Assembly (NCBI GenBank): GCA_004322045.1
Contig: SCRN01000043.1
Coordinates: forward strand, 124,001-188,000
DNA length: 64,000 nt
Source: Paraburkholderia sp.
GTDB lineage: Bacteria > Pseudomonadota > Gammaproteobacteria > Burkholderiales > Burkholderiaceae
Reading direction: 5' to 3'
The notes beneath the pieces are model-generated. The model did no database searches. It saw nothing but the letters and a program-made list of their open reading frames with translations, and was not told the origin of the DNA. Of the stretch, positions 15,914 through 47,653 are shown in pieces. How positions within the stretch are numbered: the first letter of the stretch is position 1; each line of letters opens with the position of its first letter. The position numbers and the translations under genes are program-made.

Positions 15914-17335
15914 ATGAACGCCGCTGTGATCGATTCGAAGCAAAATCAAGATTTCCTCGTTGCCGACCTGTCGCTGGCCGATTGGGGGCGCAAAGAGTTG
16001 ACGATCGCCGAGACCGAAATGCCTGGTCTCATGCAGATCCGCGATGAATACAAAGCCGCCCAGCCGCTCAAGGGCGCACGCATCGCCGGCTCGCTGCACA
16101 TGACGATCCAAACCGGCGTGCTGATCGAGACGCTCAAAGCGCTCGGCGCCGACGTGCGCTGGGCGTCGTGCAACATCTTCTCCACGCAGGATCACGCCGC
16201 CGCCGCCATCGCCAAAACGGGCACGCCGGTGTTCGCCTTCAAGGGCGAGTCGCTCGACGAGTACTGGGAGTTCTCGCACCGCATCTTCGAATGGCCGAAC
16301 GGCGAGTTCGCCAACATGATCCTCGACGATGGCGGCGATGCAACGCTGCTTTTGATTCTCGGCTCGAAAGCGGAGAAGGATCGCTCGGTCATCGGCAAGC
16401 CGACGAACGAGGAAGAAGTCGCCTTGTTCAAGTCGATCGCGCGCCACCTCGAGATCGACTCGACTTGGTATTCCAAACGCCTCGCGCAGGTCAAGGGCGT
16501 GACGGAAGAAACGACGACGGGCGTGCATCGTCTCTATCAAATGGAAAAAGACGGCCGTCTGCCGTTCCCTGCCATCAACGTCAACGATTCGGTCACGAAG
16601 TCGAAGTTCGACAATCTCTACGGCTGCCGTGAATCGCTCGTGGACGGCATCAAGCGCGCGACGGACGTCATGATCGCGGGCAAGGTCGCGGTGGTGGCCG
16701 GTTACGGCGACGTGGGCAAGGGTTGCGCGCAATCGCTGCGCGGGCTCGGCGCGACGGTGTGGGTCACCGAAATCGATCCGATCTGTGCGCTGCAGGCCGC
16801 CATGGAAGGCTACCGGGTCGTCACGATGGAATACGCGGCCGACAAGGCCGACATCTTCGTCACGGCCACCGGCAACTACCACGTGATCAACCACGATCAC
16901 ATGAAGGCGATGCGTCACAACGCGATCGTTTGCAACATCGGCCACTTCGATTCGGAAATCGACGTCGCATCGACGCGCCAGTACACCTGGGAAAACATCA
17001 AGCCGCAAGTCGATCACATCGTCTTCCCGGACGGCAAGCGCATCATCTTGCTGGCAGAGGGCCGTCTCGTGAATCTCGGCTGCGCGACGGGCCATCCGTC
17101 GTTCGTGATGTCCAATTCGTTTGCGAACCAGACGCTCGCGCAAATCGAACTGTTCACGCGCGGCGGCCAGTACGAGAACAAGGTGTATGTGCTGCCCAAG
17201 CAATTGGACGAGAAGGTGGCGCGCCTGCACTTGGCGCGCATCGGCGTGCATCTGACCGAGTTGACGGACGCGCAGGCCGGTTACATCGGCGTCGAGAAGA
17301 CCGGTCCGTTCAAGCCGAATCACTACCGCTATTGA
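15914..17335 (+). CDS. ahcY: Adenosylhomocysteinase (S-adenosyl-L-homocysteine hydrolase)
   Basis: Hydrolyses S-adenosylhomocysteine to adenosine and homocysteine, removing an inhibitor of methyltransferases. The protein has 473 residues, the normal length of the proteobacterial type with the internal insertion. Visible are the substrate-binding region [15 protein letters not shown], the NAD-binding motif [20 protein letters not shown], the segment [20 protein letters not shown], and the C-terminal [12 protein letters not shown] that contributes to the neighbouring subunit's NAD site. The start at 15914 follows AAAGGAGGG; a frame opening further upstream only reads through the riboswitch. Expression is controlled by the SAH riboswitch directly upstream. 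Confidence 0.98.
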
Positions 17336-17340
17336 TTCGA

Positions 17341-17392
17341 GCGGGCGTTGGCGTCGCACGTCTTGCGAGAGCGAGGCGTGCGGCAAGCCCGC
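17341..17392 (+). terminator. Long hairpin immediately after ahcY
   Basis: GCGGGC at 17341-17346 pairs with GCCCGC at 17387-17392, and inside it GTCGCACG at 17353-17360 pairs with CGTGCGGC at 17377-17384 apart from one G-T wobble. It starts five bases after the ahcY stop. There is no T-run, so termination is inferred from position. Confidence 0.45.
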
Positions 17393-17545
17393 CCGTAGAC
17401 GAGCGCGCGGCGCGGCCGTTCGCTGCGCCGCGATCTTTTGCTCAATACCCGCTACCGGCTCGTGTCGTTAGCGGTCGCCCGCCTTGCCGTCGTTCGTCAG
17501 ACCCGAAAACCGAATACCACCGACCACTTCGCCGAAGGAACCGCC

Positions 17546-30721: not shown

Positions 30722-30738
30722 GGGGGACCGCCCAACCG

Positions 30739-30856
30739 CGATTCGCCTCTTTCCAGAGATTGCTGACTGGCTAAGGATTATCGATGGCGGGAGACGCGAT
30801 CTGCCTCGCGGCCCTACCTCTGGCAGTAACCCATGCAGGCTTGGCGGCGGAAGCGA
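30739..30856 (+). pseudogene. Relic of an MFS transporter 5' end
   Basis: Read in frame this gives SFQRLLTG, a TAA stop at 30772-30774, then GLSMAGDAICLAALPLAVTH. That is clearly related to the N-terminus of the intact MFS gene at 40419 (SFRMLLTGQGLSMAGDAVCL), with the Gln codon replaced by a stop. About 105 bases are recognisable, at roughly three-quarters nucleotide identity to the intact gene, so it derives from a related but distinct copy rather than a recent duplication. It then fuses in frame to the ManC relic. Confidence 0.75.
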
Positions 30857-31164: not shown

Positions 31165-32919
31165 CTACAGGCGAGCTTGAAAATCTCCCGGTGATTCCGA
31201 CTCTCGCTCCCACAACGCGCTATACAACCCGCCGCGCGCAATCAACTCGTCGTGAGTGCCATCCTCAACAACCACGCCGTGGTCGAGAACAATTATCCGG
31301 TCGAGTGGAGCGACCATCCTGAGTCGATGGGCAACCACCAATACCGTCGTTGACGCGCAAATTCCGAGCAGTGCGTCACGTATTGTGTCCTCAGTAAGCG
31401 GGTCGAGATTCGCCGTCGCTTCATCGACAATCAGGACCGAAGCGTCCCTCGCGAACGCTCGTGCAATCGCGATCCTTTGCCGCTCGCCGCCAGAAAGGGC
31501 CACACCGTTGCAGCCCACCAACGTATCGTATGAATCAGGTAAGGCGTCAATGAAATCATGCGCGTGAGCCAACCGGGTCGCGCAGTGAATGCCGTGAACG
31601 TCGGCACCGGCATGTCCATACCGCAGATTCTCTAAGATAGATCGATTGAAAAGAAGGGCTTCCTGTGGAATGACGGCGATGTTACTTCGCAGGTTTTCTA
31701 GGCAAATGGCATCGATGCTTTCATCACCGAACCAGATCCTTCCGGAAATCGGCTCGTGTAGCTTGAGCAGCAACCTTAGAATCGTGCTTTTCCCGGCGCC
31801 GGACGGTCCCACTATTCCGATCTTCTGTCCCGCAGGAATTTCCAGCGTCAAATTCTTGATTATCAACTGCTCCGTATCGTAAGCGAATTCAATTCGCTCA
31901 AAGCGTATATCGCGGCCGCGCATGGAATGATGCTCCTTGCAAGTACATGGCGCAGCCTCGGTTTGTTCCAGCAGCGCAAACACGCCATCGTTTAATCGAC
32001 CCCAAAAACCAAAAAAATCGGCAAACCTTTGACTTAGATTGTGTGTGTAATTGATGATGTTGATGATTAACCCAATCGCCATTGCAAATAGGGCTACACC
32101 AATTCCATCTTGCCTGTATAACCAAAATGAAAGAGAGACAACGACGATCGCCAAAATGGCCATGGCGCCGAATTGCGTCCATCGAACCAGTTCGAAATAG
32201 TTGTTTGCGCAGTTGATGGATTCCTTTTCTTTGGTGAGCATCGTCTTCAGGTTCGCTACTTCCCGCGTGGAGCCGTTGAGCAGATCGACGAGCAGGTGAT
32301 TTGCCAAGGTGTCAGAAATATGTGCATTCGTTTCATTTTCACTCTTTGCGGCCCGCAGCGCGTGAGTTGCCCCCATTTTCGCAAACATAAACGAAGCGAC
32401 AAAGTAGATAGAGATCCAACTCGTCATAAATATCCCGAGCCATACGGAAGCGATGAAGAGCATCAGTGCGGCCGAGCAAAGCGCCACCAGCATGGGCCAA
32501 AAATCGAAAATAATGCAACCCAAAATTTGATTAATGGAAACCGATGTTTCGGCAAGTCGATGCGATATAAGCCCTGACGACTGCTTCGAATAAAATGCAT
32601 TCGGATATCGTAGCACGCGTGCGTACAACCACTCTACTGCCCAGTGCCTTTGTTCAGCTAACGTCCGCACAAACATACGGCCGGAGAGCCGCGAATACAC
32701 CATGTCACCTAAGATCAACGTCAAAAACACTGCTAACAGCGTCACCTCCTTCTCGATGGAGGAATCGTGCGAACCGACTGCATCGACTAGTAATCCGAAA
32801 ACAAGAGGGGCCAAAATTCCGCTCGCTGCTTGAAGTAGCTCGAATAGCCCAATCGTAAAATATCTGACGCGATATCGTTTGATGATTGCGCTAAAGAAAG
32901 AAAGTGGTGTGACGTTCAT
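31165..32919 (-). CDS. ABC exporter, fused membrane and ATPase domains
   Basis: A 584-residue half-transporter of the MsbA/lipid-peptide exporter type, acting as a dimer in the inner membrane. The transmembrane domain spans about residues 15-315 with six helices; the ATPase has Walker A GPSGAGKST (371-379), signature LSGGERQ (475-481), Walker B VLIVDE (495-500) and the D-loop ANLD. There is no N-terminal C39 peptidase domain, so it does not itself process leader peptides. Its G+C content is visibly lower than that of flanking core genes. A truncated GT4 glycosyltransferase ends two bases before its start, so it was once part of a glycoconjugate operon; the cargo may be a glycolipid or small glycoside (inference). 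Confidence 0.9.
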   Translation of the reverse strand: MNVTPLSFFSAIIKRYRVRYFTIGLFELLQAASGILAPLVFGLLVDAVGSHDSSIEKEVTLLAVFLTLILGDMVYSRLSGRMFVRTLAEQRHWAVEWLYARVLRYPNAFYSKQSSGLISHRLAETSVSINQILGCIIFDFWPMLVALCSAALMLFIASVWLGIFMTSWISIYFVASFMFAKMGATHALRAAKSENETNAHISDTLANHLLVDLLNGSTREVANLKTMLTKEKESINCANNYFELVRWTQFGAMAILAIVVVSLSFWLYRQDGIGVALFAMAIGLIINIINYTHNLSQRFADFFGFWGRLNDGVFALLEQTEAAPCTCKEHHSMRGRDIRFERIEFAYDTEQLIIKNLTLEIPAGQKIGIVGPSGAGKSTILRLLLKLHEPISGRIWFGDESIDAICLENLRSNIAVIPQEALLFNRSILENLRYGHAGADVHGIHCATRLAHAHDFIDALPDSYDTLVGCNGVALSGGERQRIAIARAFARDASVLIVDEATANLDPLTEDTIRDALLGICASTTVLVVAHRLRMVAPLDRIIVLDHGVVVEDGTHDELIARGGLYSALWERESESPGDFQARL

Positions 32920-33444: not shown

Positions 33445-33556
33445 GAGCCTGTTTCGGCGCTCGACGTTTCCATCCGCGTGACGAAACGCCGGTTGCGCTC
33501 GTGGACGATGCGGTTGTCGAGCGCTACCACCAAATTGTGCGAAATGAAGACGTAGC
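33445..33556. repeat. Patchwork of three fragments copied from dppF and the TraB gene
   Basis: Three abutting pieces match chromosomal genes 3-4 kb to the left. 33445-33475 matches dppF 29158-29188 in direct orientation, 30 of 31 bases. 33474-33524 matches the reverse complement of 30548-30598 in the TraB gene, 50 of 51. 33526-33556 matches the reverse complement of dppF 29240-29270, 30 of 31. The pieces are too short to code for anything here. Such filler DNA suggests error-prone joining or template switching during island insertion or rearrangement. Confidence 0.85.
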
Positions 33557-34128
33557 ATGTCGTCAAGAACCTGTTCCACCGCCGCAAGTTCCGGTACAAG
33601 GGGGCGACCAAAATTTGATGCGACTGTTCAGCCCGTTCGCCTTGGCGAACTCGGTGACCTTGAAAAATCCGCTTCTCTTGATACATGGGGTCGCCTGCCA
33701 TGTATGAAAATGGAGCGGGTGGATCGCCTATTCGAGCGAAACCCAATCCGGTCGCAACGATATTCTTTCCTGTTCCAGAAATCGAATTGCCCCCTGTTTC
33801 CCCCATTCGGTATCCGTCGTCGATGTGAGCGTCATCTGGTCTGAAAATTTACGCTTTGAGTAACGCGCACGATTCAAGCGGATATATTTCTGCACACGGT
33901 ACGTGCGCTTCATGTCGCGGCCAACCTTGGCAGGCTGTCACAGGTTTCGGGCGCTATTTAAGAGGCATCGTTTGCACGTGCGATCCATTGCTTCGCGCTA
34001 CGCATGTTCGGCGTGCGTTGATTCGTTGAGCCGAGGCATGCCGTTGCCGTGCGTACCGAGATACAGCGTTCGCAGCTCATTTCGTCCTAGTGACATTTAT
34101 AAACAGTTTCGGATACGGGTGATTTGAC
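33557..34128. other. Non-coding remnant DNA before the island operon
   Basis: No intact gene. On the minus strand about 33695-33818 reads SISGTGKNIVATGLGF then ARIGDP, which weakly resembles a PAAR-type repeat (ARxGD), but stops flank it. On the same strand about 33590-33680 reads FFKVTEFAKANGLNSRIKFW before a stop, unassigned. The last 60 bases should hold the promoter of the operon at 34129; TATAAA at 34098-34103 is a possible -10 box without a clear -35. Confidence 0.4.
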
Positions 34129-35445
34129 ATGGAGACACGATTCGGTGAAACGCGAGTGGGGAACGTATCGGCCGGCTGGAATCACCTTCCGGAGATTGGT
34201 TCGACGCAAATTCGTGACGCACGCGGCGCGCGCATACAAACGGCATCGGGCGAGTGGCGCGATGACTACATAATGGGTTGGGGCTCCTGCTTCCTTGGTC
34301 ATGACAGCGCCATCATCAAGGACTCGATAGCTCGATCGATATCGGGCGGTTTCCTTCAGCAATATGAAACGGAGGAGCATCAACGACTGAGTGAGCGCTT
34401 CTGCGCAGTTGTCCCGTGCGCCGAAAAACTCCGCCTCGTGAATTCAGGTCTCGAAGCCACCATGTATGCCACGCGGGTGGCGCGCGCAGTTACCGGAAGG
34501 CGCATGATCCTGAAGTTCGAGGGACATTTTCACGGGCTGAATGATACGCTCACCTGGAATGTTGATTCCTCCGCACGAAGCGGTATCCGTCAAGCGAGTG
34601 GTGAACTCGAGCGCATGGCCGGCACGGTAGGCATTCCGCGCGAACTAGGACTGCTGACAATACCAGTGGCCTGGAACGACCTCGATGCCGTGCAAAGGAT
34701 ATTCGAACTTTACCCCGACGACTTGGCCGGGGTCATTTTGGAGCCGATAGCGCTCAATCTAGGTTGCATCAGGCCGGATGACGGCTTTCTCGAAAGCCTG
34801 CGAGCAATCGCTACCAAGTACGGTGCGCTTTTGATCTTCGACGAAGTGCTGACCGGGTTTCGCGCCAACATTGGTGGCGCGCAAGCGCAACTCGGCGTTG
34901 TTCCGGACATCGCGACATTCGGGAAGGCGTTTGGCTGCGGGATGCCGATCGCTGGCATCGCCGGCCGGGCCGAGTTCATGGATGTCATTGCGCCGCGCGG
35001 GCCGGTTCAAATCAGCGGAACAAACACCGGACGCTACCTCGCAGTGGCTGCCGCGAGCGCTGTTATCGAACATCTCGAACGCAGTGACGCTTTTCAATAC
35101 GTCGCGGCGATGGAGGAGGCGCTGAGGAAAAACTTGGATTCAATATTCGTGAAGCATGGTATTCCGTGCCATATAGACGGTTACGGTGGTCGAATAGGCG
35201 TTCATATGGGATCGTCAGTGCGCCCGCGTTCAATGAGGGATATTGAGAAAACCTACCCTATCGGCTTTGCGCGAAAATTGTTTCATTTGCTGTCGACCGA
35301 GTACGGTTTGTACGGATTCCTAATGCCGCTCATGTATTGTCCGGAGCCAATTACGTTATCGGCCGCGCACACCTCTAACATGATCGGAAATGCATGCGAT
35401 CGTTTGGATTCCGCACTCAATAGACTTGATTACCATGCCGACTAG
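34129..35445 (+). CDS. Class III PLP aminotransferase/aminomutase, GSA-aminomutase-like
   Basis: A 438-residue PLP enzyme and first gene of the island operon. It has the class III layout: LRLVNSGLEATMYATRVARA near residues 101-120, KFEGHFHGLND, the PLP-binding Asp238 in LLIFDEVLTGFR, and the catalytic Lys266 in ATFGKAFGCGMPIAG. These segments follow glutamate-1-semialdehyde 2,1-aminomutase, but the bacterium should have its own hemL elsewhere, and the context of sugar and nucleotide enzymes argues for a secondary role, such as transamination of a small keto-phosphate or keto-sugar (inference). Start at 34129 has only a weak ribosome-binding site. The next gene begins inside its last codons. 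Confidence 0.87.
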   Translation: METRFGETRVGNVSAGWNHLPEIGSTQIRDARGARIQTASGEWRDDYIMGWGSCFLGHDSAIIKDSIARSISGGFLQQYETEEHQRLSERFCAVVPCAEKLRLVNSGLEATMYATRVARAVTGRRMILKFEGHFHGLNDTLTWNVDSSARSGIRQASGELERMAGTVGIPRELGLLTIPVAWNDLDAVQRIFELYPDDLAGVILEPIALNLGCIRPDDGFLESLRAIATKYGALLIFDEVLTGFRANIGGAQAQLGVVPDIATFGKAFGCGMPIAGIAGRAEFMDVIAPRGPVQISGTNTGRYLAVAAASAVIEHLERSDAFQYVAAMEEALRKNLDSIFVKHGIPCHIDGYGGRIGVHMGSSVRPRSMRDIEKTYPIGFARKLFHLLSTEYGLYGFLMPLMYCPEPITLSAAHTSNMIGNACDRLDSALNRLDYHAD

Positions 35446-35938
35446 AAATGATAGGCCAATTTCGATTCGTCGATTCGATAAATCCGATCTGAATCGCGTG
35501 CTTAGGTTGGTGTCTCAAATCGACTCACCGGAAGATCTCGTAATGGCCGCGCAGGCGCAATTCACTCGAGAATTCGAAGAGAAACCTTGCGATGAGGCGA
35601 GGTTTGTTGCGGATTACGCCGGTGTTGTCATCGGAACTATGGGATGTAGTCGTGGCCCCATCCCCTCAAAGCTCGCCTTGTGGGCGGATTGGCTTGTCGT
35701 CGATAAAAGATTTCGTCGACAAAATGTGGCGACGTTGCTCTATAAGAATGTTGAAAATTTCGCAATGACACTTGGGAAAAAATATTTGTGTCTGGATGTC
35801 GGCAACATTGATGCACAACGCGCCGCGTATGCCTTTCATTTCAGAAATGGTTTTCAAATTGTTGGGCAGATCCCTGATTACTGGGGAGAGTTGCAACACC
35901 TAAACATCATGACCAAATATCTGGCTAAAAAGGATTGA
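35435..35938 (+). CDS. GNAT-family N-acetyltransferase
   Basis: A 167-residue protein; the start at 35435 (MPTRNDRPISIRRF) overlaps the preceding gene by 11 bases. The GNAT fold is visible: a beta strand with ADWLVVDKRFRRQNVATLL, where R-R-Q-N-V-A matches the acetyl-CoA pyrophosphate loop, then LCLDVGNIDAQRAAYAFHFR and the C-terminal NGFQIVG. It would acetylate an amine, plausibly one installed by either aminotransferase of the operon (inference). Base composition is strikingly AT-rich for this genome: 35701-35760 has 21 G+C of 60 bases. That supports recent transfer from a lower-G+C donor. Confidence 0.85.
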   Translation: MPTRNDRPISIRRFDKSDLNRVLRLVSQIDSPEDLVMAAQAQFTREFEEKPCDEARFVADYAGVVIGTMGCSRGPIPSKLALWADWLVVDKRFRRQNVATLLYKNVENFAMTLGKKYLCLDVGNIDAQRAAYAFHFRNGFQIVGQIPDYWGELQHLNIMTKYLAKKD

Positions 35939-35945
35939 TGTCGAC

Positions 35946-36467
35946 ATGACAATTTTGTGCGAGATTATAGAGCTTCAGGCCCTCGTCGATCGTTATCGAA
36001 CCGACGGGTTACTAGTGGGGCTTTGCCACGGTTGCTTCGATATTGTTCATTGCGGACACATTTATCACCTGCGTCAAGCCAAGGCGCTTGTAGATCGCCT
36101 TTTCGTATCGGTCACGGCCGATAAGTTCGTCAATAAGGGCCCGGACAGGCCGGTATTTGCTGCTGGCGCGCGCGCGGAACTCATCGCGTCGATTCGTTAC
36201 TGTGATCACGTCTTCGTGAATTATTCGATGACGGCAGAAAGCGTTATTTCAGCGCTCCGGCCGGATGTGTTTTTCAAAGGGGCTGACTATCAATCCGCCG
36301 TGGATCCAAGACTGAGCGCTGAGCGGTCGATCGTCGAACGCAACGGCGGGCGCGTGGTGCTTACGGACAACGCCGTGATGGATTCAACGTCACGAATCGC
36401 GCATGTCATCATGTCCACGCACATGCAAACAGCAAGGGGGCGAAATGAAATCACTGCTGCTGCTTGA
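35946..36467 (+). CDS. Nucleotidyltransferase of the HldE-C/TagD (cytidylyltransferase) fold
   Basis: A 173-residue alpha/beta phosphodiesterase-superfamily nucleotidyltransferase. The N-terminal motif GCFDIVHCGHIYHL contains the HxGH signature (His35 to His38) that binds the nucleotide phosphates, and the second half has ALRPDVFFKGADY and the DSTSRI segment in place of the usual ISTT-type motif. Relatives activate heptose 1-phosphate with ATP (HldE C-domain) or glycerol 3-phosphate and phosphoethanolamine with CTP. No heptose kinase or isomerase gene is present here, so the substrate is open. It follows the GNAT gene by seven bases and overlaps the HAD gene by 23. Confidence 0.83.
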   Translation: MTILCEIIELQALVDRYRTDGLLVGLCHGCFDIVHCGHIYHLRQAKALVDRLFVSVTADKFVNKGPDRPVFAAGARAELIASIRYCDHVFVNYSMTAESVISALRPDVFFKGADYQSAVDPRLSAERSIVERNGGRVVLTDNAVMDSTSRIAHVIMSTHMQTARGRNEITAAA

Positions 36468-37098
36468 TCTTGACGGAACCCTAATCGACACGCCGCACTA
36501 TGAAGCATGGCGCCGCGCGGCAGCTCGTATGGGCATCATTGATTTTACGTACCACGAGTATGTCGTTCACCTGGCTGGGCGACCGCGTCAGGAAGGGGCC
36601 GTTCGTTTGTTGGAATTGAAAAAAGGTGATGCGCGACGGACGGTGTGCGGCTCCGACGACGTTAGCGCGTTGGCGCACGCCAAGCAAGCAGAGTTCTTGC
36701 GGCTCGCGGCACGGACGCAGCTTTTCGAAGACGCACGTCGGTTACTCGAGCGTGTGCGGAGCACTGACCAATGCGTCAAATTCTATACGGCGTCGGAGAA
36801 CGCGGCCAGTCTATTCAAAGCTGCTCTGCGCGGATCCGAGCAGTCGGTGATTCGGGGATGCATGGTCCGGCAACGCGGCGACCAGACACGAGAAGCGCTA
36901 TTCGCATCGCTCGCGAGCGAGTATCCGCGAGAAGCGATGATCCTTGTGGACGACGCGCCGCACGCTGTCGACGCTGCCTGCCGGCTCGGAATGCGAGGCT
37001 ATCAGATTCGCCGCAACGAATACGCGCCCGTACCGACTGAGTCGTGCGCGCGCACGATCCCGACGCTCGACGATATCACGCTGCCGATTCGTTATTGA
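36445..37098 (+). CDS. HAD-superfamily hydrolase, beta-phosphoglucomutase/phosphatase-like
   Basis: A 217-residue HAD enzyme; the start at 36445 follows AAGGGGG and overlaps the previous gene by 23 bases. Motif I is LLLLDLDGTLIDT with nucleophile Asp8 and acid Asp10; the cap has HLAGRPRQEGAVRLLELKKG, similar to beta-phosphoglucomutase-type caps; motif II TASENA and motif IV MILVDDAPHAVDAA follow. It could be a phosphatase for a sugar phosphate, or a mutase interconverting beta-hexose 1-phosphate and 6-phosphate. The second option fits the GH65 phosphorylase two genes on, because GH65 enzymes release beta-glucose 1-phosphate and are often paired with such a HAD protein. Confidence 0.82.
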   Translation: MKSLLLLDLDGTLIDTPHYEAWRRAAARMGIIDFTYHEYVVHLAGRPRQEGAVRLLELKKGDARRTVCGSDDVSALAHAKQAEFLRLAARTQLFEDARRLLERVRSTDQCVKFYTASENAASLFKAALRGSEQSVIRGCMVRQRGDQTREALFASLASEYPREAMILVDDAPHAVDAACRLGMRGYQIRRNEYAPVPTESCARTIPTLDDITLPIRY

Positions 37099-37111
37099 CA
37101 AAGGACATGTA

Positions 37112-38158
37112 ATGAGTGAATGCAAAAATGTGCTGGTAACCGGCGGAGCTGGGTACATCGGGGCACGTTTGATCCCAAAACTCGTGGCTGAAGGGTACTC
37201 GGTTCGCGTTCTCGACGCGCAATTCTTTGCGGGTGGGTCGCAACGGTTCCTAAATCAGCGTCGAATCGAAACGGTCAGAGGCGATATCCGGGACGATGCG
37301 CTTGTAGAGGACGCGCTACGTGGGGTTCATACGGTAATACACCTTGCCGCGGTTGCAAACGATCCCAGTTTCAACAGTGACCCGGCGGTGAGCCGGTCGA
37401 TCAATATCGACTGTCTCCCCCACCTCATGTGCACCGCAAAGCGCTCCGGCTGCCGTCGCTTCATTTATGCGTCGTCTGCGAGCGTGTACGGCGTCAACGC
37501 CGATCCTGTCGTCGATGAGGCCCAACCATGCGTACCCGTGACGGACTATAACCGATACAAGGCACAGGGCGAGGCGATGCTCTTCGAACTGGACGACTCG
37601 TCGTTCGAAACGATTGCCGTGCGCGCCGCCACCGTTTGCGGCTGGTCGCCCAGGCAGCGTCTCGACCTGACTGTCAACATACTGACGGCCAGCGCCCTCG
37701 CGGAGGGGGAAATCACGGTACTTGGCGGACATCAATATCGGCCGAACGTGCATATTGCCGACCTCTGCCGCCTATACGCATTGCTTGTCAAGAAAGAGTC
37801 CTTAGGCGCGCTATGTGGGCGTCCGATCAACGTCGGCAACGAGAATCACACCGTGGCTGAACTAGCGGAGCGCGTCAAAACGGTAGTCGACCGCTACTTA
37901 GGGACGGACGTGCTGATTCGGATTGCGCCTTCCGACGATATTCGATCCTACAGGCTTGATTCAGCGCTGATACGGCGCGAACTCGGGTTTGAGTTTGCAT
38001 ATTCGATTCGGGACGCAGTGCTGGAGCTATGCGAGCGCTGGCAATCAGGTTGGTTCAACGACAGTCCGAATGTTCTCACAGATCCCCGTTACCACAACCT
38101 GTTGAACATGCGCTCGTTAAACTGGTCCTACCGTTCCCCGGCGGGGCGCGCATGCTGA
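37112..38158 (+). CDS. NAD-dependent sugar epimerase/dehydratase (extended SDR)
   Basis: A 348-residue extended short-chain dehydrogenase of the nucleotide-sugar-modifying type. The Rossmann motif is NVLVTGGAGYIGARLIPKL, the catalytic region has [11 protein letters not shown] and Tyr146-x3-Lys150 in TDYNRYK, and the RPNVHIADLCRLY segment is typical of 4-epimerases and 4,6-dehydratases. The ATG at 37112 follows AAAGGA, 13 bases after the HAD gene. It would oxidise a sugar nucleotide or sugar phosphate, making the keto group an aminotransferase needs (inference). It overlaps the GH65 gene by seven bases (ATGCTGA). Confidence 0.88.
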   Translation: MSECKNVLVTGGAGYIGARLIPKLVAEGYSVRVLDAQFFAGGSQRFLNQRRIETVRGDIRDDALVEDALRGVHTVIHLAAVANDPSFNSDPAVSRSINIDCLPHLMCTAKRSGCRRFIYASSASVYGVNADPVVDEAQPCVPVTDYNRYKAQGEAMLFELDDSSFETIAVRAATVCGWSPRQRLDLTVNILTASALAEGEITVLGGHQYRPNVHIADLCRLYALLVKKESLGALCGRPINVGNENHTVAELAERVKTVVDRYLGTDVLIRIAPSDDIRSYRLDSALIRRELGFEFAYSIRDAVLELCERWQSGWFNDSPNVLTDPRYHNLLNMRSLNWSYRSPAGRAC

Positions 38159-40422
38159 TCATTTCCCACAGGGATCAACATGAATCGGTGGCCGCACTAA
38201 ACCGTGCATCGTCATCCTTCGTCTCATGTATGACCACATTGGCCAATACGCTCATCGGCGTGCGACCTCATGTACCTGATAGTTCATCGCGCGCTAGGAA
38301 GTTGCAATTGCTCGCGACGGGTGTGTACGCCCCGGGCACGGGCGTGGCGCGCGAGATCGTTTCATTGCCCGCCCCGCGCATTCTTCGAATCTACAACGTG
38401 CGTACCGGCGAGCCGGCTTTGCGCGCAAACGGCACGACCGCGAGGGTCGTGCTTTCCCTTGACGACGCGGTTGTAGAGAGTACCGAACATTTGCAGATCG
38501 GGGGCGTAAGGTTCGAACTCGTGGTCAGGCAATTTATCGACGTGCAGGAAAAGTCGAGCGTTTCCACTTCGATCCGATTACAGCGGATGAGTGACGGTTG
38601 CGTCGCGCCAAGCTTGGTACGAGTGGACTACGGCATCGATGATTCTGCAGTCAACGAATACTTGGGCAGTTCGCGATGGCTGACGGCTCGATATTATGAC
38701 ATCGAGTCATGCCGACAAGGCGATCGCCATTTCAGTGCAATTGTCGTTACCGACGAACACCGGTTGCGCTACGACGTGCAAGTCGAACCATCACCGCACT
38801 CTGGTGCCCATACATCGACTTGGAGTGATGTCGAGCAAGGCTGCGTGATATCCGCCACCTTCGACTTTTCCATGGCGGACTGCCGGCATCTCTTCACCTG
38901 CTGGCAGGTGCGCCCGGCGTTGGAATTCCCATGCTCAGGGCAGGTCCGTGCAATGTCGGAATTTTTGGATATTGAAAGCGAACACCGCGCTCTTTGGGCC
39001 GCGATTTGGAAAAGCCATTTCGTGCAGATCGACGCCAATCAAGCGCCCGTCGAGTTGGGAGTGAAGTACGCCGTATTCCAGCTGCTTCAGCATGGCACAG
39101 GTCCTCAACATCCAGAGCGCGGTTTCATTTCGCCGGCGCGTGGACTCACGAGTACGTATCACTCGGGGGCGACGTTCTTTGACACCGAACTACACAAGTG
39201 CATTTTTTGGATATGGAATGATCCGATTATGGCAAGGGCACTCATCGATTATCGATATCTCCACCTGGAGGACGCTGTCCGGTTTGCAAATGCCACCGGC
39301 TTCTCAGGCGCACGATTTCCCGAGGCTTCGAATGATCGGGGTGGGGAAAACGGGCCGCGCTACGTCCTGCTCTATCCGAGTGCGGAGATAACGCGCGAGT
39401 GGAGTGTCGACGAAGTCCTGCACATATCAGCGAACGTTTGTTATGCCGTGCATCGGTACTGGACCGTCACCCGTGACGACGCGTATATGAGTGACCGCGG
39501 TAGCGAAATCGCCATGGCATGCGCGAGATTTTCCGTATCAGCATTGACATGGTCGGATAGCAAGCAGGCGTATGTTGTTAATCGTGTAATGGGTCCCGAT
39601 GAATACCACTACCATGTCGACAATAGCTTTTACACGAATTACTCTCTCAGTTGGTGCATTCAGTTCGCACTGTCGTTGATCGACCTCGGGTTGGTGCGTG
39701 AATTCCGAGCCGATGAGGTGGCGCATTGGCGACGCCTTGCAAGCAGCATATATCTTCCATGGATGGAGGCTGACGGCATCTCGATTCCCGAGGAGTTTGA
39801 CGGATACGCGAATCTACCCGATACGCCGCTGCGCGTCGCGAAAGGAAGCGGGCCGCAATTTGTTAGCGAGCTCGAACGACATTCAGCGGAAAAGATGGAG
39901 AACTTTCCTTCGAAAGTCATAAAGCAAGCCGATGTGGTCTTACTTCTCTCACTGTTTCCGCAGCACTTCTCACATGAGGTCAAGCGCGCCGCGTTGGCGT
40001 TCTACGAGCCTCGAACGGTACATGAATCGTCACTGAGCTACGGGCCCCACGCCGTGCTCGCCGCCGATGTCGGCGAGTCCTCGGCTTGTGCTGATTTCAT
40101 CGCGCGTGCGAGCCGCTACAACCTCGACTTTACCAAGGTGGACGACTATGGCAACGGCTTGCATTTATCCGCGTACGCCGGTGCTTGGCAAGGGCTCGTC
40201 GAGGGGATGGCCGGACTTCGCGTCGAGGGCGATGGTCTGTCATTCCGACCGCAGTTGCCGGAACAGTGGAATTCCTACCAGTTCACGATTTGCTTTAGAG
40301 GCAGGAGATTACACGTCACCGTTCCCGCTAACGGCGCGATACAGATTGAACACGACGGCAACAGCTTACCCGTTCAATGGCGTGCGGACGGACGAGCGCA
40401 CTGTTGCGGAGCGTGCGCGTGA
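38152..40422 (+). CDS. Glycoside hydrolase family 65 (disaccharide phosphorylase-like) enzyme
   Basis: A 756-residue GH65 protein, normal length for maltose, trehalose and kojibiose phosphorylases. An N-terminal beta-sandwich (about residues 1-270) is joined by a helical linker to the (alpha/alpha)6 barrel. The barrel carries FFDTELHKCIFWIW, the catalytic motif MGPDEYHYHVDNSFYTNYSL with the presumed acid Glu484, the phosphate-region segments KQADVVLLLSLFP and YEPRTVHESSLSYGPHAVLA, and a C-terminal sandwich. GH65 enzymes break or form alpha-glucosidic bonds with inorganic phosphate and beta-glucose 1-phosphate. Replacement of the usual Glu after GPDEYH by Tyr is atypical. Inside a biosynthetic operon it may build a glycosidic bond rather than degrade sugar (inference). 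Confidence 0.88.
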   Translation: MLIISHRDQHESVAALNRASSSFVSCMTTLANTLIGVRPHVPDSSSRARKLQLLATGVYAPGTGVAREIVSLPAPRILRIYNVRTGEPALRANGTTARVVLSLDDAVVESTEHLQIGGVRFELVVRQFIDVQEKSSVSTSIRLQRMSDGCVAPSLVRVDYGIDDSAVNEYLGSSRWLTARYYDIESCRQGDRHFSAIVVTDEHRLRYDVQVEPSPHSGAHTSTWSDVEQGCVISATFDFSMADCRHLFTCWQVRPALEFPCSGQVRAMSEFLDIESEHRALWAAIWKSHFVQIDANQAPVELGVKYAVFQLLQHGTGPQHPERGFISPARGLTSTYHSGATFFDTELHKCIFWIWNDPIMARALIDYRYLHLEDAVRFANATGFSGARFPEASNDRGGENGPRYVLLYPSAEITREWSVDEVLHISANVCYAVHRYWTVTRDDAYMSDRGSEIAMACARFSVSALTWSDSKQAYVVNRVMGPDEYHYHVDNSFYTNYSLSWCIQFALSLIDLGLVREFRADEVAHWRRLASSIYLPWMEADGISIPEEFDGYANLPDTPLRVAKGSGPQFVSELERHSAEKMENFPSKVIKQADVVLLLSLFPQHFSHEVKRAALAFYEPRTVHESSLSYGPHAVLAADVGESSACADFIARASRYNLDFTKVDDYGNGLHLSAYAGAWQGLVEGMAGLRVEGDGLSFRPQLPEQWNSYQFTICFRGRRLHVTVPANGAIQIEHDGNSLPVQWRADGRAHCCGACA

Positions 40423-41660
40423 GATCCTTCGCCGAGCGCATGTCGCCGTATCGAGACGCTCTGCGCTTCACATCCTTTCGGATGCTGCTGACTGGCCAGG
40501 GACTGTCGATGGCGGGCGATGCGGTTTGTCTCGCAGCCCTGCCTCTCGCGGTCATTCACGCGGGGCTTACGGCCGACATCTTCGGTTTCCTGATGGCCGC
40601 CGTGGGCATCGGCACGGTGGTCGGTGCGATTGCCGGTGGGGTGCTCGCAGATAGCAGATCGCCGAAGCACGTGCTGATCGCAACCGACGTTTCGCGCGGC
40701 ACAGTGCAGATTTCCGTGGTCGCTCTAATGACGTGCGGCGCTCCTTCTTGGTGCCTCGTATTTGCCTATCTCGTGTTCGGCATCGGGATCGGCATCTCGC
40801 GTCCATGCACCCAGGTATTGCTCGCCAATCTGCTGCCGAAAGAGGCCTTGATTGCCGGCAACGGGGCGATGAACTTCCTCGACAACCTCGTTGCGGTCAT
40901 TTTTCCGGCCACGCTAGGCGTCTTGATCATTGTGTGGGATCCCGTGTGGGGCGTGCTCATCGACGGGGTCACGTTTTTTGCCGCTGCGATGTTTACCGTC
41001 CTGGTGCCAAACCAAGGCAGGCTGGATTGCGGCGATGAGTTCTCGATGCGCAAAGCATTCGATGGCCTCGCGATCATCGTCCGTAAGCGCGAATTATTGT
41101 TGGGCTTTTTCGCAACCCTTTTCGTCAATGTTTTTTGCTTTCCGGTTTTTTTGGTAGTCGCCCCCTATGCGGTGAGCGATCGCTTTGGCGACACCATGTG
41201 GGGAATATGCCTTGCAGCGTCCGGATTGGGAGCATGCCTTGGGTCCGTCATCACGGTGCTAGCGTGCGGGCATCGGCGTCTCATCGCACTCGCGGTTACC
41301 TGCGGGGTACTTCTCTGCGGTGCGCTGGCCGTGCTGGGATTGGGGGATCTCGGCTGGATGGCGGTGCTGGGTGCCACGTTCGTTGGCATTGTCGAGGCGT
41401 CTTGGCTGACGGGCTGGGCAACGGCGATGCAGACCCATTCACCCGAAAAAGATCTGGGCAAGGTTGTCGCGGTCGACACGTTCGTGACTAGTGGCTTGCA
41501 TCCGTTTATTTACGTGGGCGGGAGCCTCGTAGGGCAGGCGGTCGGTTACGCCCACACCCTCACGATTGCTGCCGTTGTCAGCGCGGCCGGAACCCTGGCA
41601 ATCGGGCTGGTGGGCACCAAGCGAAGCGCGCAAAGGGTGACTTATGATCAGATGCAATAA
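40419..41660 (+). CDS. MFS-family exporter, about 12 helices
   Basis: A 413-residue major facilitator, probably a drug/proton antiporter-type exporter of the EntS group. The start is taken as GTG at 40419, which overlaps the GH65 stop in a GTGA arrangement; ATG at 40440 is an alternative. Twelve hydrophobic segments are visible, with the MFS loop-2/3 motif represented by GGVLADSRSPKHVLIATDVS and IGIGISRPCTQVLLANLLPK. Being last but one in a biosynthetic operon, it probably exports the product. A decayed related copy of its 5' end lies at 30739-30856 at the other end of the island. Confidence 0.88.
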   Translation: MRSFAERMSPYRDALRFTSFRMLLTGQGLSMAGDAVCLAALPLAVIHAGLTADIFGFLMAAVGIGTVVGAIAGGVLADSRSPKHVLIATDVSRGTVQISVVALMTCGAPSWCLVFAYLVFGIGIGISRPCTQVLLANLLPKEALIAGNGAMNFLDNLVAVIFPATLGVLIIVWDPVWGVLIDGVTFFAAAMFTVLVPNQGRLDCGDEFSMRKAFDGLAIIVRKRELLLGFFATLFVNVFCFPVFLVVAPYAVSDRFGDTMWGICLAASGLGACLGSVITVLACGHRRLIALAVTCGVLLCGALAVLGLGDLGWMAVLGATFVGIVEASWLTGWATAMQTHSPEKDLGKVVAVDTFVTSGLHPFIYVGGSLVGQAVGYAHTLTIAAVVSAAGTLAIGLVGTKRSAQRVTYDQMQ

Positions 41661-42738
41661 CGTCCAAGAACAGACGTCCGATTTGTCTGAATTGTTCATT
41701 GAACGGTGGCGCCATGTTCTCGCCGCCGGGGATTTCGTGCTCGGTGAGGAAGTCGACTTGTTCGAGAACTGGATGTCGCGGCGCTGCAGCGGTGCTTATG
41801 CGGTATCAATGAATTCCGCCACCGACGCTTTGTTTCTCGCGTTGCGGGCGCTCGGAATCGGGGTGGGCGATGAAGTCATCACGTGTTCGAATACGTTCAT
41901 TGCTACCGTCGGCGCGGTTGTCGCTGCGGGTGCCCGGCCCGTCCTGGCGGATGTCGGCGATGATGAACTCATGCACGTCGACTTGATCGCGCCGCTGATC
42001 AACGCTCGGACGCGCGCCGTTATACCCGTTCATCTTCGGGGGCGGCCGGTTGACATCGGCGCGATCGTTGCGTTGTGCCGCCCCCGAGGCATAGCGGTGG
42101 TGGAGGATTGCGCCCAAGCAATCGGAACGACGATCGACGGCCGCCAAGTCGGTACTGACGGCGATGCCGCGGCGTTTTCGCTGCATCCGCTAAAGACACT
42201 CGGCTGCTTAGGCGACGGTGGTGTGCTGGTCACGACTAATCCGGGCATCGTGGAATACGTCATGAATGCGCGCAACCACGGCTTGCTCACGCGCGAGGAG
42301 TCGGTCGCGTTCGGGATCAATTCTCGGCTCGATACCCTGCAGGCGGCCGCGTTGAATGTCAAAGCCGCATATGTCGACCAATGGTTGCGCCGTCGTAGGG
42401 AAATTGCCGCCTTCTACGACGAAGCACTCGCCGAAACCGCAACGGGGACAGATCTAGGGAAGAGCAAGCCAGGGAACGCCTATTACCACTATGTTGTTCG
42501 ATCCAAGAACCGAGATGAGCTGCTTCGACACATGGCAATGCATGGCATTCAGGCGGCAATCCACTATCCGATCCCTATTCATCGGCAAAAGGCATGGTTG
42601 TGCAGTCAGCCATCAGTATCGTTGCCGACGACGGAGGGATACGCTCGGGAAATCGTCACCATTCCCTGCCACCATCATCTGTCGGACAGCGACGTCGAAA
42701 GCGTCGTGAGGGCGATACGACGGTTCGACACCAGGTAG
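41644..42738 (+). CDS. DegT/DnrJ/EryC1/StrS family sugar aminotransferase
   Basis: A 364-residue PLP aminotransferase of the kind that converts keto-sugars to amino-sugars. Family features: MNSATDALFLALRALGIGVG, VVEDCAQAIGTTIDGRQVG with PLP-binding Asp155, the internal-aldimine Lys184 in FSLHPLKTLGCLGDGGVLVT, and FGINSRLDTLQAAALNVK followed by AIHYPIPIH near the end. It starts 17 bases inside the MFS gene. With the SDR enzyme as keto-forming partner and the GNAT as possible acetylating partner, it points to an amino-sugar in the product (inference). It is the last large gene of the island. Confidence 0.93.
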   Translation: MIRCNNVQEQTSDLSELFIERWRHVLAAGDFVLGEEVDLFENWMSRRCSGAYAVSMNSATDALFLALRALGIGVGDEVITCSNTFIATVGAVVAAGARPVLADVGDDELMHVDLIAPLINARTRAVIPVHLRGRPVDIGAIVALCRPRGIAVVEDCAQAIGTTIDGRQVGTDGDAAAFSLHPLKTLGCLGDGGVLVTTNPGIVEYVMNARNHGLLTREESVAFGINSRLDTLQAAALNVKAAYVDQWLRRRREIAAFYDEALAETATGTDLGKSKPGNAYYHYVVRSKNRDELLRHMAMHGIQAAIHYPIPIHRQKAWLCSQPSVSLPTTEGYAREIVTIPCHHHLSDSDVESVVRAIRRFDTR

Positions 42739-45016: not shown

Positions 45017-45769
45017 TCAATGCGACTGCGCGGAAGCGGCACGCACGGCGATGCCGTTCGTCTCGAGCGTGTCGCGCAATCTCTGCGCGAACGCGAGCGC
45101 GTGCGGTCCATCTCCGTGCAGGCACAACGTGCGCACGTCGAGCGGCACCCAGCCTCCCGTCACCGCGCGCACCCGTTTGTCGCGCACCATCGACAGCACG
45201 TGCTCGAGCATTTCGTCTTCATCGTCGATGAGGGCGCCGGGCTCCGAGCGCGGCACGAGCGAGCCGTCGGCGCGATAACCGCGGTCGGCGAACCCCTCTT
45301 CGATCGCAATGAGTCCCGCCTCGCGCGCCATCGCGATGAAGCGGCTGTTGGCCAGACCGAAGACGGCGACCGACGGATCGAAGTCATGCACGGCCGAAAT
45401 GATCGCTTCGGCAATCGCCGGATCGCGCGCGGCCTGGTTATAGAGCGCGCCATGCGGCTTCAGATGCGCCACCCGTGCGCCTTCGGCTTGCGCGATCGCC
45501 GACAGGGCCCCGAGCTGATAAAGAATGCCGGCGTAGATGTCGTCGGGCGGCAGATGCATTTCCTTGCGCCCAAAATTGGCCGGATCGTGAAAGCTCGGAT
45601 GCGCGCCGATCGCGACGCCGCGCTGCACGGCAAGCCGAACGCTATCGCGCATGGCATTGGCGCCCCCGGCGTGCCAGCCGCAGGCAATGTTCGCCGAGCT
45701 CACGAGACCGAGCAGCGCTTCATCCGCGTCGCCGCCTTCGCCGAGATCGGCATTCAAATCGATTTGCAT
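45017..45769 (-). CDS. pxpA: 5-oxoprolinase subunit A (LamB/YcsF family)
   Basis: A 250-residue subunit of the ATP-dependent 5-oxoprolinase PxpABC, which opens 5-oxoproline (pyroglutamate) to glutamate. Family signatures: [20 protein letters not shown] at the start, [70 protein letters not shown] and [14 protein letters not shown]. The start at 45769 follows GAGGGTG. It lies 20 bases after pxpC, giving the order B-C-A. Confidence 0.96.
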
Positions 45770-45789
45770 GACACCCTCATCCAAAACCA

Positions 45790-46848
45790 TCAAGCGGCGT
45801 GCGCGCGCCCGGCCTGGCGCTGCATCCGCTCTTCATGCATGGCGATCGCGGCATCGATCTGCCGCAAATACGCCTGTTGCTCGGCGAGCGCGTAGCGCGC
45901 TTCTTCGCGCGTCGAGCGCACGAAGCGCACAGCCCCGCCTAGCCGCACCTGCGCGAGCTTCCACAGATCGGCGGCGATGACGACACCGATGCGCGGGTAG
46001 CCGCCCGTCGTTTGCGCATCGCTCATGAGTACGATCGGCTGGCCGTTGCTCGGGACCTGAATCGTGCCGGGCAGCACCGCGTGCGAGAGCATGTCGCCGC
46101 TGTGCGCGCCGGTTAGCGGGCTGCCGGCCAGGCGATATCCCATGCGATTGCTTTGCGGGGTAACGCACCATTCGTCCGACCAGAACGCCGTGCGCGCCGC
46201 TTCGTCGAAAGCATCGTATTCGGGGCCGCGCAGCACCCGGATCACCGCTGCGCGCTCTGCGCCAGCGACGTGCTTGCCGCGCCGTACCGGCTCGTGCGCC
46301 ACTTCGGCGAAGCGGCACCATTGCGGCGCCTTGACGCCGAATGCGGGCGCATCGACCGCCGACACGCGGCGCGGCCCCGCCGCAGGCACGCCGAGCGCAA
46401 GCCTGTCGCCGTCGCGCAGCTTGCGTCCGCCCAGCCCGCCGAAGCGCGCGGCAAGATCGGTGCTGCGCGAGCCGAGCACCGGCAGCACGTCGATGCCGCC
46501 GCGGATGCACAGGTAGCCGCGCATGCCGCGCGTCGGGCCGTGCAACACCAACTCTTGCCCTGCGCGCACCGGCAAGCTCCACCATGTATAGACGGGCACG
46601 CCGTCCAGGGTGGCGGCGAACTGCGCACCCGTGATGGCGATGCGGGTGGCCCGTGTGAAGCGAAACGCGGCGGGGCCGACGGTAATTTCGATCGCGGCGG
46701 CCTGCGGCGCATTGGCGACGAGGCGGTTACCCACTTCGAGCGCGAGCACATCGAGCACGCCGGCTTGGGCGACCCCGAGATGCCGCAAGCCCGCGCGGCC
46801 CAAATCCTGCACCGACGATAGCACGCCGGCGCGCAGCACCTCGATCAT
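45790..46848 (-). CDS. pxpC: 5-oxoprolinase subunit C (biotin-dependent carboxyltransferase-like)
   Basis: A 352-residue AHS2-domain protein. With PxpB (AHS1) it phosphorylates or activates 5-oxoproline. Signatures: [20 protein letters not shown] at the start, [32 protein letters not shown], and near the end [13 protein letters not shown] and [20 protein letters not shown]. It overlaps pxpB by four bases (ATGA), so it is translationally coupled. The last 40 residues form a charged helical tail. Confidence 0.95.
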
Positions 46849-47498
46849 GGGGCGAACTCCACGACGGAAAAACGCACCCGATCGCCGCTTTGCAGCAGGG
46901 TGGGCGGATTGCGCGCGGGATCGAACAGGGTCGACGCCGTGCGCCCGATCAACTGCCAGCCGCCCGGCGACGCGGCCGGATAAACGCCGGTTTGCGCGCC
47001 GCCGATGCCGACCGAGCCGGCCGGCACTTCGAGCCGCGGCACCGCGCGGCGCGGCGTATGCAGCGAGGGGGCGAGCCCGCCCAGATAGGCGAAGCCCGGC
47101 TGAAAGCCGATGAAGAACACGATGTATTCCGCGCTCGAATGGCGCCTGATGACTTCCTCGGCGCTGAGCCCCGCGTGCTGCGCCACTTCCTGCAGATCGG
47201 GACCGTCGTCGCCGCCGTAGCGAACGGGGATCTCGATCTCGCGGGCCGCAGCTTTCACGGCCACGGTGTGGTTCCACGCGTGCCCTAGTTGCCGCGCGAG
47301 CGCTTCCATATCGGCGCGAAGCGGATCGAAGACGATCGTCAGATTGTTCATGCCCGGCACCGCTTCGACCACGTGCGCCCATTCGCGCGCCGCCTGCGCG
47401 AGCGCCCAGATGCGCTCCTGACATGCGAGCGTAGCCGGTGGCGGCGCCTCGCAGACGAGCGCGCTATCGCCGAACGGATAGATACGTGGTTCTGTCAT
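46845..47498 (-). CDS. pxpB: 5-oxoprolinase subunit B (AHS1/KipI family)
   Basis: A 217-residue AHS1-domain protein, first gene of the pxpB-pxpC-pxpA set. Diagnostic segments are RIYPFGDSALVCEA, VPGMNNLTIVFDPLRADMEA, IPVRYGGDDGPDLQEVAQHA, VFFIGFQPGFAYLGGL and VGIGGAQTGVYPAASPGGWQ. Homologues in Bacillus (KipI) were first known as kinase inhibitors, but with pxpA and pxpC adjacent the oxoprolinase role is secure. The start at 47498 (MTEPRIYPFG) is preferred over 47525. A MarR-type regulator is divergent 155 bases away. Confidence 0.95.
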   Translation of the reverse strand: MTEPRIYPFGDSALVCEAPPPATLACQERIWALAQAAREWAHVVEAVPGMNNLTIVFDPLRADMEALARQLGHAWNHTVAVKAAAREIEIPVRYGGDDGPDLQEVAQHAGLSAEEVIRRHSSAEYIVFFIGFQPGFAYLGGLAPSLHTPRRAVPRLEVPAGSVGIGGAQTGVYPAASPGGWQLIGRTASTLFDPARNPPTLLQSGDRVRFSVVEFAP

Positions 47499-47653
47499 CT
47501 GAGCGCCTTCGCCGGTCGCATGCATGCATTGTATGGGACGGCATTATCGATAAATTATCGACATTTTACCAATAAGCGTTTTCGCTAATGCTGAGCGGTT
47601 AGCGGGCGGCGTACACTTCGCCCACTCCTTCTCATCCTCGGCAGCAGCCCGCT

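Follow-up and report, generated by a model that had tools for sequence, protein, structure and literature searches.

A rare, mobile eight-gene operon of Paraburkholderia and other bacteria as a candidate pathway for an exported amino-sugar glycoside

A 64,000-nucleotide stretch of Paraburkholderia sp. DNA (contig SCRN01000043.1; hereafter the window, meaning the whole stretch analysed) contains, at 34129..42738, an operon of eight open reading frames (ORFs), all on the + strand, as located by a preliminary description made from the sequence. In order, the operon encodes a class III pyridoxal phosphate (PLP) aminotransferase (AT3), a GNAT acyltransferase, a nucleotidyltransferase (NT), a HAD-family protein, an extended short-chain dehydrogenase/reductase (SDR), a GH65 enzyme, an MFS exporter and a DegT sugar aminotransferase. 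We find that this operon is a rare, mobile and self-contained unit that is spread over several bacterial orders. It is likely that an amino-sugar glycoside is made and exported by its products, in support of the coherent pathway without an assigned product that the preliminary description had put forward. The best explanation of the gene set, to which we give slightly less than even weight, is a mobile, self-contained cassette for a small pseudo-disaccharide of amino sugars, with a sorbistin-type aminoglycoside as the most likely product, the individual steps being inferred from the encoded protein families. The making and export of an amino-sugar glycoside is the stronger of these claims, and the identification of the product as sorbistin-type is, taken by itself, tentative.

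Conservation, spread and mobility of the operon

Relatives of the operon were collected with peptide patterns and a GH65 family alignment, applied across 84,980 species genomes; further genomes and a plasmid record were then added. The scan returned at least 80 GH65 loci, 8 of them at 55-62% identity and 72 at 35% or less, and the identity of the 8 close sequences spans nearly the whole protein or its available part. Eleven distinct places besides the window were retrieved with wide flanks (L013, L016, L018, L021-L026 and two that each appear under two handles, L017=L020 and L015=L019). The preliminary description had suggested that the same gene order be sought elsewhere, and among these 11 places, all with GH65 proteins at least 54% identical, it is indeed complete at 9; the other two (L021 and L024) are truncated at contig ends and keep the order in their remaining genes. 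Because the eight-gene order recurs in this manner, a chance grouping of genes is excluded. Two of the 9 complete copies have AT3 in two frames (L019, 5976-7293; L026, 5979-7291), as does the truncated L024 for NT (1653-2131), and these split frames would reflect either decay or sequencing error.

The hosts include members of the Burkholderiaceae, Pseudomonas, Xenorhabdus, Photorhabdus and Klebsiella, as well as P. aeruginosa plasmid records. Three such plasmid records match, and in the 2 examined with wide flanks the operon is located amid integrative-conjugative-element genes. The P. aeruginosa and Klebsiella operon proteins share a mean identity of 81%, which is above that of either to the other eight operons compared (one fragment of the split aminotransferase was used in the means for L019 and L026). 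Most operon genes in the P. aeruginosa records carry family names, with HAD labelled 'hypothetical protein'. The earlier characterization of the operon as unrecognised thus stands for its product and not for its genes, which are named by family in these records and recur in several orders. In the P. aeruginosa element of L013, a 58-residue frame at 17238-17414 was labelled OXA-573 by a resistance predictor; this is probably a mislabel, as the frame looks too short for a beta-lactamase.

Within each group surveyed, the operon is uncommon. GH65 matches above 900 bits occur in 5 of 398 genomes of the family (4 of the same genus, including the window's own), in 1 of 369 genomes of the class (the window's own), in 2 of 246 genomes in the family of L022, and in 4 of 298 genomes in the genus of L025, where one further fragment of 66% identity was found. 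Of 30 genomes in the genus of L022 searched with AT3, 2 have the operon. A 3,989-base piece has no match in E. coli. Among phage records, GH65 genes are present in 22, all less than 60% identical; records of Listeria phages (H25-H28) carry GH65 genes of about 26% identity.

A GH65 enzyme with a phosphorylase-type active site and an altered donor pocket

We compared 16 operon GH65 proteins with 81 distant ones, dropping ORFs shorter than 600 amino acids before the count; the distant set comes mostly from a two-peptide-pattern scan, among the matches listed, and is not a random GH65 sample. Residues are numbered natively from the ATG at 38152. The catalytic domain is present (Table 1), the general acid E484 is kept in 16 of 16 operon proteins, and the same is true of the phosphate-site residues R330, S626, S627 and H671, which mark a GH65 enzyme as a phosphorylase. 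The GH65 phosphate site is given as two Ser, a His and a Lys (PMC8626586); 4ktp has, like the operon enzymes with R330, an Arg in place of this Lys. The operon proteins share no conserved Glu at native 659-664, where the hydrolase base would fall in an ungapped alignment. Judged by these residues, the operon GH65 appears capable of phosphorolysis or its reverse, with a sugar-1-phosphate as product or donor.

The donor site departs from that of the distant GH65 proteins. While D344, K591 and Q592 are kept in all 16 operon proteins, the residue before D344 is Phe (F343) in 16 of 16, as opposed to Trp in 81 of 81 distant GH65 proteins. This Trp binds the -1 glucose through a hydrogen bond, together with Asp, Lys and Gln, and the -1 residues are described as completely conserved (PMC8626586); of this Trp-Asp-Lys-Gln set for glucose donors, the Trp alone is changed in the operon enzymes. 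Nearby changes in the donor site are His for a Tyr found in 81 of 81 distant proteins, Ala or Ser for a His found in 71 of 81, and Ile, Val or Met for a Pro found in 80 of 81. Since Phe replaces a Trp that is otherwise invariant, the donor is probably a sugar other than unmodified glucose. In relation to the alpha-glucoside phosphorylases of GH65 (kojibiose, nigerose, maltose and trehalose), the operon enzymes share the fold, the general acid, the phosphate site and the donor Lys-Gln and Asp, and differ in these four substitutions and in belonging to an amino-sugar rather than a sugar-use operon. The GH65 specificities include nigerose-type alpha-1,3 activity (PMC8537180). On balance, we slightly favor a role for GH65 in joining sugars in the synthetic direction, from a modified donor. 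The preliminary description had assigned the formation or handling of a glucosyl bond to GH65 and HAD; the phosphorylase type is borne out, the altered donor pocket means that a plain glucosyl bond is probably not formed, and HAD is nearest to beta-phosphoglucomutase.

A proposed C4-dehydrogenase and a linked L-2-hydroxyglutarate oxidase

Sugar 4,6-dehydratases carry a Thr-Asp-Glu motif. Since the SDR has SSASVYG in its place, alongside the YxxxK motif, we assign it to the dehydrogenase or epimerase type. Its best PDB match is 6vo6 (105 bits), which we take to be Campylobacter Cj1427. Cj1427 is described as a C4-dehydrogenase that binds NADH tightly and has it reoxidised by 2-oxoglutarate, which yields L-2-hydroxyglutarate (PMC10680097). 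We propose that the SDR is an NDP (nucleoside diphosphate)-sugar C4-dehydrogenase. As the nearest solved relative of the SDR, this heptose-modification enzyme has a by-product that fits the oxidase described below; however, the match is just ~105 bits and the substrate of Cj1427 is GDP-heptose.

At each of the three Xenorhabdus/Photorhabdus loci read, the gene immediately 3' of the operon encodes an L-2-hydroxyglutarate oxidase, which is broken in one case. Scores of the linked oxidases against NF008726 are 564 and 586 bits, compared with a cut-off of 299, and the broken copy scores 252. In the genus of L022, an oxidase above the cut-off is present in 19 of 30 genomes, as against 2 of 30 for the operon. 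All 12 resident oxidase copies read have the same upstream gene, which the 3 operon loci lack in the sequence available for them. The genome of L022 (G766) has an intact oxidase in the usual place and the broken second copy behind the operon; the first 113 residues of this broken copy are 94.7% identical to the linked copy of L023, compared with 90.0% to its own intact oxidase and 85-92% to the 12. The oxidase thus appears to accompany the operon as an accessory gene in the Xenorhabdus/Photorhabdus group, and it lends moderate independent support to the idea that the operon encodes a dehydrogenase using 2-oxoglutarate. This evidence draws its weight from the linkage at all three loci and from the second copy. 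Sequence similarity supports it less strongly, and the comparison leaves that weight unmoved.

Proposed pathway and product

Sorbistin is an antibiotic of Pseudomonas sorbicinii, dating from 1976, in which 4-acylamino-4-deoxy-glucose is joined alpha-1,3 to 1,4-diamino-1,4-dideoxy-glucitol. Each enzyme class of the operon has a place in the structure of sorbistin and LL-AM31, as an alpha-1,3 pseudo-disaccharide with a 4-acylamino sugar and a 1,4-diamino-alditol. The formula computed for the sorbistin scaffold with a butyryl group is C16H33N3O9. The same formula is given in the literature for sorbistin A2 of P. sorbicinii, as a tentative annotation whose m/z misfits the formula (PMC12175458).

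In the pathway that we propose, HAD would provide beta-glucose-1-phosphate and NT would convert beta-hexose-1-phosphate to an NDP-sugar. The SDR would oxidise C4, with electrons passing to 2-oxoglutarate to give L-2-hydroxyglutarate, after which DegT would turn the ketone into an amine and GNAT would N-acylate the amino sugar. GH65, working in the synthetic direction by reverse phosphorolysis, would transfer the beta-activated amino sugar, with inversion, to another amino sugar and so form an alpha bond, AT3 would aminate the open aldehyde at the reducing end to give an amino-alditol, and the MFS protein would export the product. An alpha-linked product agrees with enzymes that act on beta-1-phosphates and with an inverting GH65. 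A more specific proposal, that the operon is the orphan sorbistin pathway, a glycosyltransferase-free Gram-negative aminoglycoside route that builds its alpha bond with a phosphorylase fold recruited for a C4-acylamino donor and that moves between orders and on a P. aeruginosa conjugative element, strikes us as rather doubtful.

Consistent with the first of these steps, beta-phosphoglucomutases account for all 11 PDB sequences that HAD matches at E<=0.01, although several represent variants of a single enzyme and the scores are low (32.9 bits at best). The HAD family has a DLDGT motif, an HxxAW motif and a cap Arg, and D22, D24, H32, W36 and R62 are invariant in 11 of its members. Mutase activity is likely rather than sure, and HAD may feed beta-hexose-1-phosphate forward. 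We found no sorbistin gene cluster in mainly open-access literature searched for sorbistin and its producer, as far as the sources were available, nor, by title and the start of the abstract among the matches listed, any known cluster with the gene set or product of the operon. The preliminary description had named a characterised O-antigen, capsule or antibiotic cluster with this gene set as the finding that would speak against a new pathway, and none turned up in the collections and literature searched.

Several observations weigh against the sorbistin pathway or its individual steps. By eye, the usual Lys motif is absent from the HAD family, and HAD scores 31 bits against the TIGR01990 cut-off of 189 for beta-phosphoglucomutase, with no curated NCBIfam cut-off reached; its activity may instead be that of a phosphatase. 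The pathway would require that the NDP-sugar be returned to a 1-phosphate, or that GH65 use it directly. That the contact lost with the Trp is the one to glucose O4 is inferred by analogy with the related GH15 site, and the identity of 6vo6 with Cj1427 is presumed. With regard to the oxidase, its linkage is seen in a single host group, and no oxidase in the window's genome scores above the cut-off (best 201.7 bits). Moreover, the decayed remainder of the broken L022 copy is less similar to the L023 copy (73% vs 85%), and the Photorhabdus linked oxidase is no nearer than the resident copies. Finally, the LL-AM31 compounds, which are related to sorbistin, come from Streptoverticillium, and a close AT3 homologue was found in 0 of 296 Actinomycetota genomes at E<=1e-80, a search that had no positive control.

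Alternative explanations

The DegT protein raises the main alternative, namely that the product is a different antibiotic, a 3-amino-sugar glycoside such as a kanosamine or neotrehalosadiamine (NTD)-like disaccharide, in which DegT would aminate C3, GH65 would join the sugars and the MFS protein would export the product. The nearest PDB entries to DegT are 7b0d, QdtB, 3uwc, 5u1z and 2oga, the last being DesV. QdtB, DesV and WbpE are C3-aminotransferases, and DegT is nearer to them than to the 4-aminotransferases ArnB and perosamine synthetase, which score lower. DegT thus looks C3-like, yet sorbistin has a 4-amino group, and this weighs against sorbistin. The Bacillus NTD pathway (ntdABC), which makes an amino-trehalose, likewise combines a DegT aminotransferase (NtdA) with a HAD phosphatase. 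On the other hand, DegT scores 163 bits with NtdA, compared with 281 with QdtB, and the operon has neither the Gfo/Idh/MocA 3-dehydrogenase that NtdC represents nor a cupin-type ketoisomerase domain among its eight proteins; it has in addition NT, GNAT, SDR, GH65 and the class III aminotransferase. The class of the SDR and the linked L-2-hydroxyglutarate oxidase also point to oxidation at C4, and we regard a 3-amino-sugar product as unlikely, if a serious contender.

Two other explanations appear improbable. NT, SDR, DegT and GNAT could together make an NDP-acylamino sugar for decoration of a surface polysaccharide or lipopolysaccharide, and the first three families are typical of such clusters, NT being HldE-like. 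However, a Pfam search of the eight proteins revealed no glycosyltransferase, wzx flippase or wzy polymerase domain, the operon has no polysaccharide-export genes, and the exporter is of a small-molecule MFS type. The cassette also occupies differing chromosomal places as well as a conjugative element, and no gene is common to the fetched flanks of all 12 relatives and the window, a comparison in which no search was aimed at flank glycosyltransferases. To a similarly low degree, we consider a catabolic or osmolyte unit, in which the MFS protein would import an alpha-glucoside, GH65 would phosphorolyse it and HAD would feed glucose-6-phosphate into metabolism. GH65 and beta-phosphoglucomutase form a classic disaccharide-use pair and the phosphate site is intact, but the donor pocket is changed, and the two aminotransferases, GNAT and NT would have no role in such a unit. 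At 79 distant GH65 loci, no ORF matches AT3, GNAT, NT, SDR, MFS or DegT (E<=1e-5), and 6 have a weak HAD match; many of these loci are on short contigs, and 2 have no GH65 ORF.

Operon layout and protein families

The compact layout reported in the preliminary description, with overlaps or gaps of at most 13 bases on one strand, was confirmed. The longest ORFs are spaced at -56, +7, -65, +13, -7, -46 and -17 bases, and the overlaps become smaller once starts are trimmed to where the alignments of the relatives begin. Such trimming probably places the GNAT start at 35435, as most relatives align from about residue 16 of the longest ORF, and the HAD start at 36445, while the MFS start is uncertain, perhaps within 40413-40440. 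The GC content of the operon is 0.568, compared with 0.64 on both flanks, in a genome of 6.0 Mb.

All eight family names given previously are backed by Pfam, barely so for HAD (Table 1). In the NCBIfam matches listed, no equivalog cut-off is reached by any of the eight proteins, so known enzyme names cannot be carried over to them. AT3 is 66-76% identical to its counterparts in the relatives. None of the eight matches a PADLOC anti-phage defence model at E<=0.001, and promoter and terminator scans yielded no more than shuffled sequence.

Table 1. Genes of the operon, with coordinates in the window and supporting family matches.
Gene	Assignment	Coordinates	Strand	Family match	Named-enzyme model, score against unreached cut-off
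AT3	class III PLP aminotransferase, glutamate-1-semialdehyde clade	34129..35445	+	PF00202, 161.9 bits	HemL glutamate-1-semialdehyde aminomutase, 295 vs 527 bits
GNAT	acyltransferase	35435..35938 (longest ORF from 35390)	+	PF00583, 36 bits	
NT	nucleotidyltransferase like the HldE C-terminal domain	35946..36467	+	cytidylyltransferase-like Pfam	rfaE_dom_II (HldE adenylyltransferase), 105.6 vs 181.5 bits
HAD	nearest to beta-phosphoglucomutase	36445..37098 (longest ORF from 36403)	+	Pfam HAD, 26.9 bits (cut-off 26.4)	
SDR	extended SDR, epimerase-type	37112..38158	+	PF01370, 119.7 bits	
GH65	phosphorylase type	38152..40422	+	PF03632, 246.8 bits (cut-off 27)	
MFS	exporter	40377..41660	+	PF07690, 86.6 bits	TIGR00900, 116 vs 320 bits
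DegT	sugar aminotransferase	41644..42738	+	PF01041, 314 bits	

Insertion site in the window

By eye, the genes flanking the operon encode a DUF979-like membrane protein, a TraB/GumN-like protein and a peptide ABC ATPase. Among 10 genomes of the same genus checked for these flanks, the DUF979-like gene is present in 6, at 9 places, and at all 5 of the places read (L141-L145) the three flank genes are found together with the operon absent. The DUF979-like and TraB/GumN-like genes are about 59 bases apart in G122 and are separated by 2.3-6.2 kb of differing DNA at the other four places; one of these four genomes, G044, carries the operon elsewhere. The gap between these two genes (~0.06-6.2 kb in five genomes of the genus) is a variable insertion spot. 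Short pieces of the upstream TraB/GumN-like and peptide ABC ATPase genes, 2 of 3 inverted, lie before the operon at 33445-33570 and are probably a rearrangement scar.

The same low-GC stretch holds an MsbA/HlyB-type ABC exporter gene (31165-32919, - strand), divergent from the operon. It was considered as a partner of the operon and set aside, the fetched flanks of the relatives holding only a distant ABC ATPase (28%, L016). A segment at 30738-30827 shares 76% DNA identity with the beginning of the MFS gene (40463-40552) and may be the remnant of a previous or related copy. Beyond the operon, genes at 45017-47525 (- strand) have by eye the look of a 5-oxoprolinase set, PxpABC.

Significance

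These observations single out genes whose role in making an amino-sugar compound can be tested directly, in Pseudomonas, Xenorhabdus and Photorhabdus as well as in bacteria of the Burkholderia family. If the sorbistin assignment is true, they would perhaps close a fifty-year gap. We know of no precedent for an antibiotic-joining glycoside phosphorylase with a non-glucose donor; if the proposed role is true, such a GH65 would represent both new enzymology and a useful catalyst. The presence of the cassette on a conjugative element of P. aeruginosa suggests a competitive trait that can be transferred between strains.

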